Assembly: GCA_012840485.1 (NCBI GenBank)
Contig: DULG01000019.1
Coordinates: forward strand, 1-64,000
Reading direction: 5' to 3'
DNA from: Clostridia bacterium
GTDB lineage: Bacteria > Bacillota > Thermoanaerobacteria > Thermoanaerobacterales > Thermoanaerobacteraceae
Length of the DNA stretch: 64,000 bases
Part shown: one piece after another, positions 2,392 through 56,716 of the stretch
How positions within the stretch are numbered: the first letter of the stretch is position 1
Layout: the number at the start of each line of letters is the position of its first letter
Notes under the pieces: model-generated
What the model was told of the DNA's origin: nothing
Databases searched by the model: none
Seen by the model: only the letters and a program-made list of their open reading frames with translations
Translations under genes and position numbers: made by a program

Positions 2392-3418
2392 TTTCAATCA
2401 CCTCCACGTCGAGTCCCAAATCTTTTAGATATTTTAAAGCAGCGTCTGTTTCACCGTTTTTGCCTCTTAGCTCAACTATAAGAGTACCGTAGGGCATACC
2501 CTGGATGTGGTCAATGTTTCCATAGAGAATATTGGTGTCAACATCAAATTTTCTTATAATGCTTGATATGACAGGTTCTGTTGTAATTTCGCCGAAAAAG
2601 GCAATTTTAATAATTTTGCCTTCCAAGTGTTCGTGGGACAAGTTTTCAATCCTATCTTTTAATTCCTTAGGTATTTCTGATAAAGTTACAGATTTTAAAA
2701 AATTTCGTGCGGTTTCTGTTTGAGGTTTTTTAAATACTTCAATAAGAGGTCCCTGTTCTACCACACGACTTTTTTCAATAACTGCTACTTTATTGCAAAT
2801 TTGTTTAATGACATTCATTTCATGAGTTATGAGAACTATGGTGATTCCCAGCTCCCTATTTATATCTTTTAAAAGATTTAAAATAGAAAGAGTTGTTTCT
2901 GGATCCAGCGCTGAAGTAGGTTCGTCACAAAGAAGAACTTTCGGATCATTAGCCAGGGCTCGTGCTATGCCTACCCGCTGTTTTTGACCGCCTGAAAGCT
3001 GAGAAGGATAGTTGTCGGCCTTGTCGGAAAGCCCCACGAGCTCTAAAAGATTTTCTACTTTTTTATCGATTGTCCTTTTGTCCAGCCCGGCAATCTCCAA
3101 AGGAAAAGCCACATTGCCTCTGACAGTTCTGGATGATAACAGATTAAAATGCTGGAATATCATGCCTATTTTTTTTCGCATTTCTTTTAATTCAGAGGGA
3201 GAAAGCCGAGTCATTTCAACACCATCTATCTCAATTGAACCGGAAGTTGGCTTTTCGAGCATATTTATGCAGCGCAGGAGAGTACTCTTTCCAGCACCGC
3301 TCAGACCTATAATTCCAAAAATATCACCTTTTTCTATGCTGAGGTTGACATCTTCCAAAGCCCTAACATTTCCTGAAGCTGAATGATAAATTTTTGTAAG
3401 GTTTCTAATGTAGATCAA
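2384..3418 (-). CDS. metN: Methionine ABC transporter ATP-binding protein MetN
   Basis: A 344-aa ABC ATPase. Walker A is GLSGAGKST (38-46), the signature is LSGGQKQRVGIARAL, and Walker B is VLLCDEPTSALD. After about residue 265 comes a C-terminal NIL (ACT-like) domain of the kind that binds methionine and inhibits transport in MetN. The start is TTG, 7 nt after GGAGG. It is the first gene after the SAM-I riboswitch, so transcription should fall when S-adenosylmethionine is plentiful. Confidence 0.97.
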   Translation of the reverse strand: MIYIRNLTKIYHSASGNVRALEDVNLSIEKGDIFGIIGLSGAGKSTLLRCINMLEKPTSGSIEIDGVEMTRLSPSELKEMRKKIGMIFQHFNLLSSRTVRGNVAFPLEIAGLDKRTIDKKVENLLELVGLSDKADNYPSQLSGGQKQRVGIARALANDPKVLLCDEPTSALDPETTLSILNLLKDINRELGITIVLITHEMNVIKQICNKVAVIEKSRVVEQGPLIEVFKKPQTETARNFLKSVTLSEIPKELKDRIENLSHEHLEGKIIKIAFFGEITTEPVISSIIRKFDVDTNILYGNIDHIQGMPYGTLIVELRGKNGETDAALKYLKDLGLDVEVIENV

Positions 3419-3441: not shown

Positions 3442-3604
3442 AAAAAATCCCCTTCTGACAGTACGAAGAGGCCTTTAAATCCTCTTATCTGCCAGAACTA
3501 AACGTTCTGCAGGAATTAGCACCGTGTAGCCTATGTTTATAACTTTTGGCCACCGGTTGCCGGGTTTCATCGGGCCAGTCCCTCCACCTGCTCTCGATAA
3601 GAGT
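3442..3604 (-). promoter_or_regulatory. SAM-I (S-box) riboswitch with attenuator, upstream of metNIQ
   Basis: On the minus strand the aptamer (3604 to about 3482) has the S-box hallmarks AGAGCAGGTGGAGGGACTGG, GATGAAACCCGGCAACC and GGTGCTAATTCCTGC. P1 pairs CTCTTATC (3597-3604) with GATAAGAG (3483-3490). The expression platform is a terminator, CCTCTTC (3465-3471) with GAAGGGG (3449-3455), followed by six T (3442-3447). The P1 3' strand AAGAGG can instead pair with CCTCTT, giving an antiterminator. Predicted logic: SAM bound means P1 forms, the terminator forms, and metNIQ is off. Confidence 0.96.
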
Positions 3605-6756: not shown

Positions 6757-6789
6757 TGGTATAACCTCCAAATTTTATTGTACATAAAA

Positions 6790-6819
6790 AGTATACCATG
6801 GAATTAAAGGATTAAACAA
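6790..6819 (-). promoter_or_regulatory. Promoter of rqcH
   Basis: Minus-strand -10 TATACT (6790-6795) and -35 TTGTTT (6814-6819) with an 18-nt spacer, 34 nt before the rqcH start. Confidence 0.5.
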
Positions 6820-6873
6820 TAAAAATTATATATGCATAATGTCAGATATATTACCATTTGCTTCTTCCCAAAA

Positions 6874-6896
6874 TTTACACATACTATATGTGTAAA
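6874..6896. promoter_or_regulatory. Perfect 10-bp inverted repeat (operator-like)
   Basis: Arms TTTACACATA (6874-6883) and TATGTGTAAA (6887-6896) are separated by 3 nt. A weak + strand promoter (TTGCTT 6858-6863, 18-nt spacer, TACTAT 6882-6887) would place the repeat over its -10. It differs in sequence from the palindrome at 6950. Confidence 0.55.
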
Positions 6897-6941
6897 ACTT
6901 AGCTATCTCTAAATTTATGACATGCATAAAAGGAGATTGTA

Positions 6942-6971
6942 TTGATTTTAATTGTAACATTTGTTACAATT
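6942..6971 (+). promoter_or_regulatory. Promoter with overlapping palindromic operator, ChrB-like/MFS operon
   Basis: -35 TTGATT (6942-6947), 17-nt spacer, and extended -10 TGTTACAAT (6962-6970). A perfect palindrome with arms AATTGTAACA (6950-6959) and TGTTACAATT (6962-6971) and a 2-nt centre covers the spacer and the whole -10. That is a standard repressor geometry. The cognate regulator is not known. Confidence 0.7.
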
Positions 6972-7010
6972 AACTAAGATGCAAAAATAGGAATTGGAGG
7001 AGGTGTAAAA

Positions 7011-7538
7011 TTGAAATGGCTTCTTTTTGTATATAAGGTTCCCAGCGATTCTTCAACGGCTAGAGTTACTATATGGAGGAGGATAAAGAAAATTGGGGCT
7101 TTGTATTTGCAACAGTCTGTATGCATTGTGCCATATATGGAGAAATTTTTAAAAGAAGTAGAAAGGTTAAAAGAGGAAATCAATAGCTTTGGGGGGGATT
7201 TTAAAGCTTTTGAGGTAGTAGCCCTTGAAGAAGAGACAGAAAAAGATATAATAGCACAGTTCAATAATCAAAGATGGGAAGAATACAGTGAAATAAAAGA
7301 ACAGTGCGAGGAATTTTTTAAAGAAATTGAAAAAGAAATAGGGAGAAAAAATTTTACTTTTGCAGAATTAGAAGAAAATGAGGACGAACTTAATAAATTA
7401 TACAAGTGGTTTGAAAAAGTAGTCCAAAGAGATGTGTTTGAATGTGAGGCAAAAAAAGAAGTAGAAGAGTTGCTAAAAAAAGCAAGCCAGGATTTTGAAG
7501 GGTTTACTTCCTTGGTTTATGAAAATAACAAAGAGTGA
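7011..7538 (+). CDS. ChrB N-terminal domain-like protein
   Basis: 175 aa. The start MKWLLFVYKVPSDSSTARVT and the following WRRIKKIGALYLQQSVCIVP resemble the N-terminal domain of ChrB, a chromate-resistance regulator. The C-terminal ChrB domain is absent, so this is a stand-alone short form. The remainder is charged and helical, probably coiled coil (residues 44-165). The start is TTG after GGAGGAGGTG. It lies 15 nt before an MFS transporter gene and is surely co-transcribed. The role could be sensing or regulating the transporter; no metal-binding motif is evident. Family call moderate, function unknown. Confidence 0.75.
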   Translation: MKWLLFVYKVPSDSSTARVTIWRRIKKIGALYLQQSVCIVPYMEKFLKEVERLKEEINSFGGDFKAFEVVALEEETEKDIIAQFNNQRWEEYSEIKEQCEEFFKEIEKEIGRKNFTFAELEENEDELNKLYKWFEKVVQRDVFECEAKKEVEELLKKASQDFEGFTSLVYENNKE

Positions 7539-7553
7539 TGGGAGGTATTTTAA

Positions 7554-8684
7554 TTGTTAAATGTAATAATTTTGGGACTGACGAGCCTTCTTACAGATAT
7601 ATCTACTGAAATGGTATATCCTTTAATCCCTCTTTTTCTGACTTCTAAACTAGGGGCAAGTCCTGCTATAGTAGGGCTTATTGAAGGAGTAGCTGAAAGT
7701 ATTGCCAGCATACTTAAAGTATTTTCTGGCTATATATCTGATAAGGTAGGGAAAAGAAAGCCTTTGGCTATTGCAGGATATTCATTTTCTACTATAGGAA
7801 AGGTATTTTTGTATATTGCTTCTTCGTGGGGATGGGTTTTTTTAGGTAGAACTGCTGACAGGTTTGGGAAGGGAATTAGGACTGCTCCAAGAGATGCCTT
7901 GATTGCTGAAACAGTAGACAAAGATAACATTGGAAAAGCATATGGACTCCACAGGGCCTTAGATACCTTAGGGGCCACTATTGGAATTGTTTTAGCTTAT
8001 TACTTTATAACCTCTTATAAGGGAGACTATAGGCTGGTTTTCTTGTATTCTTTGATACCCGCCTTTTTAGGAGTTTTTGTTTTGCTTTTTGCAAGGGAAA
8101 GCCAGAGAAAACATGACCTTTCAAAAAAGCTTTCATTTTCATGGAAAAGTCTTGATAGACGCCTTCAAATGTTTTTGATAGTGATTTTGATTTTTGCATT
8201 AGGAAATTCCTCTAATCAGTTTTTGCTTTTGAGAGCTAAAAATGTAGGCTTTAGTGATTCTGATGTTATACTTTTGTATCTATTGTATAATATTGTCTAT
8301 ATGGTATTTTCGTATCCAATGGGAAGGTTATCTGATAAAATAGGAAGGAAGAAACTCCTCATTATAGGTTACTTATTTTATGGAATAGTCTATTTAGGAT
8401 TTGCAATCTTTGGTTTTAAATCTGCCATGTGGATATTGTTCTCAGTATATGGTCTATATATTGCTTTAACAGAAGGAATTGAAAAAGCTTTAGTTGCAGA
8501 AATTTCTCCAGCTCATTTGAAAGGAACGGTTATAGGATTACACGCTACTTTTACAGGGATTGGACTATTGCCTGCTTCTTTTTTAGCAGGAATACTTTGG
8601 GATGTTTTAGGAGTATCTGCACCTTTCTATTTCGGCGGAATTATGGGAATTTTGGCTGCTATCGGCCTTATGATTGTTTTATGA
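7554..8684 (+). CDS. MFS transporter paired with the ChrB-like protein
   Basis: 376 aa with about ten to twelve hydrophobic segments. The MFS loop 2-3 motif appears as SGYISDKVGKRKPLAIAG, repeated in the second half as MGRLSDKIGRKKLLIIGY. The segment GRTADRFGKGIRTAPRDAL is typical of a clade often found near ChrB-like genes. Expected to be a proton-driven exporter in the cytoplasmic membrane; the substrate is unknown (drug, anion or metal oxyanion are all possible). The start is TTG with GGGAGG upstream. Under control of the palindrome-covered promoter at 6942. Confidence 0.85.
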   Translation: MLNVIILGLTSLLTDISTEMVYPLIPLFLTSKLGASPAIVGLIEGVAESIASILKVFSGYISDKVGKRKPLAIAGYSFSTIGKVFLYIASSWGWVFLGRTADRFGKGIRTAPRDALIAETVDKDNIGKAYGLHRALDTLGATIGIVLAYYFITSYKGDYRLVFLYSLIPAFLGVFVLLFARESQRKHDLSKKLSFSWKSLDRRLQMFLIVILIFALGNSSNQFLLLRAKNVGFSDSDVILLYLLYNIVYMVFSYPMGRLSDKIGRKKLLIIGYLFYGIVYLGFAIFGFKSAMWILFSVYGLYIALTEGIEKALVAEISPAHLKGTVIGLHATFTGIGLLPASFLAGILWDVLGVSAPFYFGGIMGILAAIGLMIVL

Positions 8685-31144: not shown

Positions 31145-31160
31145 ATAATTTATTTATATA

Positions 31161-31195
31161 AAAAAGGATATCCTTTGGGATATCCTTTTTTATAT
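31161..31195 (+). terminator. Terminator after SASP copy 1
   Basis: A perfect 13-bp stem, AAAAAGGATATCC (31161-31173) with GGATATCCTTTTT (31178-31190), and a TTTG loop, ending in T. Confidence 0.92.
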
Positions 31196-56346: not shown

Positions 56347-56691
56347 ATGGATTTAATAAAAGCAGTTGAAAACCAGCAGATGAGAAAAGACTTAACTCCT
56401 TTTAATGTAGGAGATACTATAAGAGTACATTATAAGGTTATTGAAGGAGATAGAGAAAGAATTCAGCCCTTTGAGGGTATAGTAATCAAAAAGAGTGGTT
56501 CAGGCCTAAAGGAGACTTTTACTGTAAGACGTGTATCTTATGGTGTTGGAGTTGAAAGGACTTTTCCACTTCACTCCCCAAGAATTGAAAAGATAGAAGT
56601 TATAAGAAAAGGTAAAGTAAGGAGAGCAAAATTGTATTATTTGAGAAAGAGAGTAGGAAAAGCTGCTACAAAGATAAAGGAATTGATGTAA
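56347..56691 (+). CDS. rplS: 50S ribosomal protein L19
   Basis: 114 aa. [20 protein letters not shown] and [19 protein letters not shown] identify it. GGAGGG lies before the ATG at 56347; a longer frame overlapping trmD is not preferred. A terminator follows directly. Confidence 0.98.
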
Positions 56692-56716
56692 AAAGGGGTT
56701 ACAAACCCCTTTTTTG
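56691..56716 (+). terminator. Terminator after rplS
   Basis: A perfect 10-bp stem pairs AAAAGGGGTT (56691-56700) with AACCCCTTTT (56704-56713) around ACA, followed by T. It is only 20 nt before rbgA, so rbgA likely depends on read-through or its own promoter. Confidence 0.92.

Follow-up and report, generated by a model that had tools for sequence, protein, structure and literature searches.

A stand-alone ChrB_N protein, its candidate operator, and a putative inorganic-ion efflux regulon in Thermoanaerobacteraceae

What does a ChrB-like protein control, and what does it sense, when it consists of the N-terminal domain only and is encoded next to a transporter other than the chromate carrier ChrA? 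This question is raised by two adjacent genes of the window, i.e., the whole 64-kb stretch of DNA that was analyzed. The first gene (7011..7538, + strand) starts with TTG, is preceded by a GGAGG-type ribosome-binding site recognized by sequence reading (GGAGGAGG region, 6997..7003, + strand), and encodes a protein of 175 amino acids that matches the ChrB_N profile PF20229 (E = 2e-41; score 142 bits, cut-off 23). No match to ChrB_C (PF09828) was obtained by Pfam search in this protein, which stops at residue 175, or in the adjoining gene, and the assignment as a ChrB_N-only protein made in the sequence-only reading is upheld. The second gene (7554-8684, + strand) encodes a putative MFS exporter of 376 amino acids with a DHA1/NorA-like fold (MFS_1, 3e-50). 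Both genes lie on the same strand, separated by 15 nt, with nothing such as mcr-5 intervening; they had been described as fused into an operon, which holds for two adjacent genes and not for a protein fusion. An NCBIfam search assigned no named family above cut-off to either protein.

The predicted fold of the ChrB_N protein resembles those of Cas2 and PaaX. Its AlphaFold (AF2) model (pLDDT 95) comprises a beta-alpha-beta-beta-alpha-beta core, a Cas2/PaaX-like ferredoxin fold at residues 1-70, followed by three long helices (74-111, 117-140, and 147-172) with an acidic insertion at residues ~100-125. A sequence search found no solved structure for ChrB_N, and Foldseek with the model returned PaaX (8a39) as the top match and Cas2 proteins next. 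PaaX_M is a secondary, weak Pfam match (1.8e-5), so that the likeness to the PaaX repressor is one of the Cas2-like fold and a weak profile match. Unlike PaaX, which bears an extra N-terminal winged helix, ChrB_N has no winged helix-turn-helix at its N-terminus, where the Cas2-like strand already begins at residue 2 of the model. Among 49 relatives of the window protein R18 is invariant and R23 is conserved in at least 90%; in a comparison of 12 sequences that included full-length ChrB, R23 aligned in all 12 and R18 in 11. Substitutions R18A/R23A in ChrB of O. tritici lead to constitutive expression, and the isolated N-terminal half of that protein did not regulate (PMC3817168). The latter result speaks against regulation by ChrB_N alone, although the acidic insertion is missing from chromate-type ChrB.

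The pairing of ChrB_N with this particular MFS family is conserved. PF20229 is present in 49 of the 398 genomes sampled from the phylum. Of 61 Bacillota ChrB_N loci, 38 are followed immediately, on the same strand, by a gene for an MFS protein that clusters by homology with that of the window; such a gene is found two genes on in three loci and directly upstream in three others. Without ten near copies from the window's own group, the MFS gene is next in 29 of 51 loci. The stop codon of ChrB_N and the start codon of the MFS gene often overlap or abut, an operon-like arrangement. Thus, the adjacency that the sequence-only reading had proposed to look for is kept in related genomes. At loci L068 (genome G008) and L023, transposase-like genes have been inserted between ChrB_N and MFS of one genome, and the MFS gene of T. 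thermocopriae JCM 7501 is broken into two frames.

The name ChrB suggests a chromate or oxyanion resistance module, which we regard as quite unlikely here. ChrB_N homology and an operator architecture similar to that of canonical chrB (see below) speak in its favor, as does the chromate-inducible chrB-Nterm of Arthrobacter (PMC2751784). However, lacking ChrB_C, the protein has no counterparts of the chromate-response residues R180, R187, and H229 (PMC3817168), and ChrA (PF02417) was found neither by profile search of the window's own genome nor near any of the 61 Bacillota loci, only 3 of which have an adjoining ChrB_C. The earlier claim of an operon with an MFS transporter other than ChrA is supported. 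The MFS protein of the pMOL28 chromate cluster was considered as a homolog of the window MFS and rejected, no alignment being found.

The gap upstream of the ChrB_N gene spans 254 nt (6757-7010, measured from the ATG of the divergent gene). The two different perfect palindromes reported in it are both real: TTTACACATA-CTA-TATGTGTAAA with 10-bp arms at 6874-6896, and TTAATTGTAACATTTGTTACAATTAA with 12-bp arms at 6948-6973, the core of the latter being TGTAACATTTGTTACA at 6953-6968. The gap was also rightly described as richer in such structure than the rest of the window, since two of the four perfect palindromes in the entire 64 kb (arms of at least 10, loop of at most 4) fall within it; first-order Markov sequences contain 0-2 such palindromes per 64 kb. 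The other two are located at 31156-31195 and 56690-56714 (18-bp and 11-bp arms, respectively), and a SAM riboswitch is found at 3482-3603 (- strand).

Upstream alignment separates the two palindromes, both of which had been taken for operators of the module. The 6948-6973 palindrome is kept in nearly all group members, the exception being G008 with insertions around the gene, and is retained as the candidate operator. In contrast, the 6874-6896 palindrome is absent from relatives: it lies in an insert of ~100 nt (6830-6936, boundaries approximate) with inverted outer arms ATGCATAATGTCA and TGACATGCATAA, found only in the window's genome among the group genomes aligned. It was rejected as an operator because the insert is strain-specific and the genome contains no close copies, and it is probably not read by ChrB_N. 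The insert, which has a partial 80% match in two other genomes of the genus, may be what is left of a small mobile element. Alternatively, the palindromes might be unrelated to ChrB_N and serve another regulator or the divergent upstream gene, in keeping with the shared gap and the strain specificity of one of them. This is very improbable, given that the 6948-6973-type site accompanies the ChrB_N gene across genera with differing neighbors and that, as described below, fetAB genes have no such site where ChrB_N is missing.

The candidate operator recurs at most ChrB_N loci and overlaps the core promoter. In the window, it occupies the spacer and the -10 box of a predicted promoter, TTGATT-17-TACAAT (6942..6970, + strand). 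Upstream regions of 150 nt from 53 non-redundant ChrB_N genes were searched for TGTAAC-N4-GTTACA, which yielded perfect sites for 13 genes, sites with at most one mismatch for 31, and sites with at most two mismatches for 36, against means of 0, 0.01, and 0.21, respectively, in shuffles (maximum 2 for the two-mismatch search); approximately one-third of the loci have no recognizable site. In 14 loci the site lies between TTGAnn and the -10 box, its right arm covering the latter, and in six further loci it overlaps the -35 box TTGACG. A site between the -35 and -10 boxes is well placed for a repressor.

Chromate-type chrB genes have a similar layout with GTAG...CTAC arms, e.g., TGTAGAGATCTCTACA before chrB1 of pMOL28 and GTAGCAATCTCTAC in Enterobacter, and a perfect TGTAAC-N4-GTTACA site, TGTAACCGTGGTTACA, precedes the split chrB of an Arthrobacter plasmid. 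The O. tritici chrB repeat, which overlaps the -10 box (PMC3817168), contains GTAGTAACATCTAC; this arrangement was read here from the printed sequence and was not proposed in that paper. The window system shares with the chromate regulators of O. tritici and C. metallidurans pMOL28 the ChrB_N domain with R18/R23, the position as first gene of an efflux operon, and a palindromic candidate operator that overlaps the core promoter and is spaced as GTAR-N6-YTAC; it differs from them by the lack of ChrB_C and ChrA, by the acidic insertion, and by its predicted MFS and fetAB targets. On these sequence comparisons, ChrB_N is very probably the factor reading TGTAAC-N4-GTTACA, and it likely acts by repression.

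The predicted targets extend beyond the adjoining genes. The sole other perfect site in the window's own genome is located between the promoter and the ribosome-binding site of a fetAB ABC transporter, the permease of which belongs to the FetB family (PF03649/UPF0014). Since ~0.3 perfect sites are expected there by chance, by our own estimate from base composition, this site alone would not be convincing; its distribution is what persuades. It is perfect in all ten genomes of the genus and in G015 and has one mismatch in G023, all of which encode ChrB_N, and it is missing in seven genomes with fetB and no ChrB_N (G010, G012, G013, G014, G016, G018, and G021) as well as in G017, which has a distant ChrB_N. 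Hence the site is found in 12 of 13 genomes with ChrB_N and in 0 of 7 without it (Fisher p = 1e-4, disregarding shared descent and with most of the carriers from one genus); separate within-genus contrasts are provided by G015 versus the other members of its genus (g2) and by G023 versus G021. The fetAB genes of G012 are a remnant. One-mismatch sites in the window's genome (17, versus 10 in a reversed-pattern control) are too close to the control to interpret, and several perfect sites in other genomes were dismissed as they lie inside coding sequences and look like chance. Further perfect sites precede genes of other transporters: in G015, whose ChrB_N is not accompanied by the MFS, that of a P-type cation ATPase, and in G039/G187 that of an OFeT-like permease. 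The domain, the pairing, the operator, and the fetAB site with its co-occurrence with ChrB_N all rest on sequence, and on that footing the predicted operator and regulon are well supported. The locus had been viewed as an isolated two-gene module, which is not borne out; with the second site upstream of fetAB, it appears to form part of a small regulon.

Genes found near ChrB_N or near relatives of the MFS gene point mostly to inorganic ions. Overproduced FetA/FetB lowers iron in E. coli (PMC4902296). At loci without the MFS gene, the neighbors of ChrB_N include genes for a P-type cation ATPase (4 loci), a Na/Ca exchanger, and OFeT_1; all three families are found immediately downstream of ChrB_N in one genome or another, and the ATPase and OFeT families are those that carry distant sites in G015 and G039/G187. 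MFS relatives in genomes without ChrB_N form MFS-fetA-fetB operons in G010 and G014, and others adjoin MntH-/MntR-like, FeoAB-like, and rubrerythrin genes, several of these names being read from sequence rather than from profiles; no manganese or iron riboswitch was found upstream of the MFS relatives. The MFS protein MdtD is an iron-citrate exporter. The resemblance to the FetAB (YbbLM) and IceT/MdtD exporters lies in the fetAB homolog that carries the same operator here; to our knowledge, no ChrB_N is known to control any of these iron exporters. Non-ion-exporter neighbors under candidate operators include a PlsC-type acyltransferase (3 loci), mcr-5, and a transglycosylase. The acyltransferase gene follows ChrB_N at L086, L105, and L078, with perfect operator sites upstream, and is a misfit with a simple ion-efflux theme. 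Taken as a theme of the predicted regulon, inorganic-ion efflux is fairly likely.

The fold of the MFS protein by itself would agree with an operon for multidrug efflux responding to drugs or metabolites, the ion exporters being coincidental neighbors. The AF2 model of the transporter (pLDDT 88) has the 12-helix MFS fold, its top Foldseek matches are NorA, VMAT, and LmrP, and the solved structures found for it by sequence are general drug exporters only. Moreover, one operon combines ChrB_N, mcr-5, and a distant MFS relative, and PaaX relatives bind organic CoA esters. We nevertheless consider drug efflux unlikely, as the operator-bearing or adjacent transporters across genomes belong mostly to inorganic-ion families. 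The earlier suggestion of a substrate-sensing efflux module is supported, and a metal cation or some other inorganic ion is a more likely inducer than chromate, another oxyanion, or a drug.

A candidate sensor is provided by the acidic insertion. Residues E105, E109, E119, E121, and E122 are conserved in stand-alone ChrB_N; all the chromate-type ChrB proteins compared have largely lost them. The acidic class includes ChrB_N proteins whose genes adjoin mcr-5, a gene of CDF-like type, or genes for a cation ATPase or an exchanger. The first long helix bears E105 and E109 close to its end, and the second bears E119, E121, and E122 at its start, so that, judging from the secondary structure of the model, both sets flank one turn and should be close in space. 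A metal cation is the leading candidate for the ligand, with odds slightly short of even.

Fluoride is ranked second, because fluoride-riboswitch neighbors recur. The module might answer to fluoride or a metal-fluoride complex, with ChrB_N as a second, protein sensor beside the riboswitch and the MFS protein removing fluoride or a fluoride-linked ion. A fluoride riboswitch is located within 10 kb of ChrB_N or MFS in 7 of 79 genomes, against ~1 expected by our own rough estimate. Such riboswitches are found on both flanks of ChrB_N-MFS in L092 (3889-3946 and 7179-7241), beside ChrB_N in Burkholderia (L121, 4183-4244), and also next to ChrB_N or MFS genes in L225 (4805-4869) and L229 (2800-2862). 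In Pantoea (L123, riboswitch at 3271-3342), ChrB_N is divergent from a riboswitch-bearing PPase-usp-enolase operon, a known fluoride operon type that confers fluoride resistance in E. cloacae FRM (PMC5533749). The gene order CrcB-DUF190-MFS in G187 points the same way. Fluoride riboswitches near several loci would not be expected under a pure metal model. In the window's genome, however, the module has no such riboswitch nearby, the association is missing at most loci, and the fetAB, MntH/MntR, FeoAB, and rubrerythrin neighbors are not fluoride genes; overall, a fluoride module is rather improbable.

The best explanation overall, to which we assign a probability of about 0.6, is that ChrB_N is an autorepressor governing a regulon for inorganic-ion efflux and most likely senses a metal cation rather than chromate. 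Direct binding, repression, the ligand, and the substrate are the parts of this model that we infer. A ChrB_N dimer with the Cas2/PaaX fold would bind TGTAAC-N4-GTTACA through helix 1 (R18 and R23). Bound between the -35 and -10 boxes and over the latter, it would block RNA polymerase and repress the ChrB_N-MFS operon, and the second operator copy would place the fetAB exporter under its control as well. Repression would be lifted when an inorganic ion, likeliest Fe2+, Mn2+, or another divalent transition metal, binds the acidic helix-hairpin insertion, the proposed substitute for ChrB_C as sensor. The MFS protein would then export this ion or its complex in exchange for protons.

Stand-alone ChrB_N with an MFS gene has previously been seen in Tn6452 around mcr-5, where ChrB_N was described as a ChrA regulator (PMC9462459). 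Plasmid records contain the same chrB-mcr-5-MFS order (L124, 2986-6422; L125, 2986-5190) with an operator-like site, TGAAACGGCCGTTACG, upstream. This operon resembles the window system in its acidic-class ChrB_N, operator-like site, and MFS gene within the operon, and differs in the intervening mcr-5 and in the MFS protein, which is only 32% identical to that of the window. In Arthrobacter FB24, with split ChrB-Nterm/ChrB-Cterm, ChrB_N is likewise a separate gene, and a related plasmid has the perfect operator mentioned above; unlike in the window, ChrB_C and ChrA are alongside, and the related plasmid copy has no acidic insertion. Our literature search, mostly without subscription papers, found no earlier account of two ChrB classes, of the operator, or of a link to fetAB, no relevant paper that connects ChrB to either PaaX or the fluoride riboswitch, and no description of how expression of chrB-mcr-5-MFS is controlled.

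Many genomes name these proteins "chromate resistance protein ChrB," a label that is likely misleading for stand-alone ChrB_N, as most such copies lack both a chromate sensor and a nearby ChrA. The defined operator offers a direct route to reading stand-alone ChrB_N regulons, and a site resembling it precedes chrB-mcr-5-MFS. If proven to be an ion sensor, the acidic hairpin would represent a new type of ion-responsive repressor. More tentatively, and with the odds somewhat against it, stand-alone ChrB_N may be a widespread, unrecognized class of metalloregulators of the Cas2/PaaX fold, devoid of a helix-turn-helix and with its own operator, which controls metal-ion efflux in both Bacillota and Pseudomonadota and, through capture, extends to the mobile mcr-5 operon; chromate sensing would then be a second use of the DNA-binding domain, with ChrB_C as the sensor instead of the acidic insertion.
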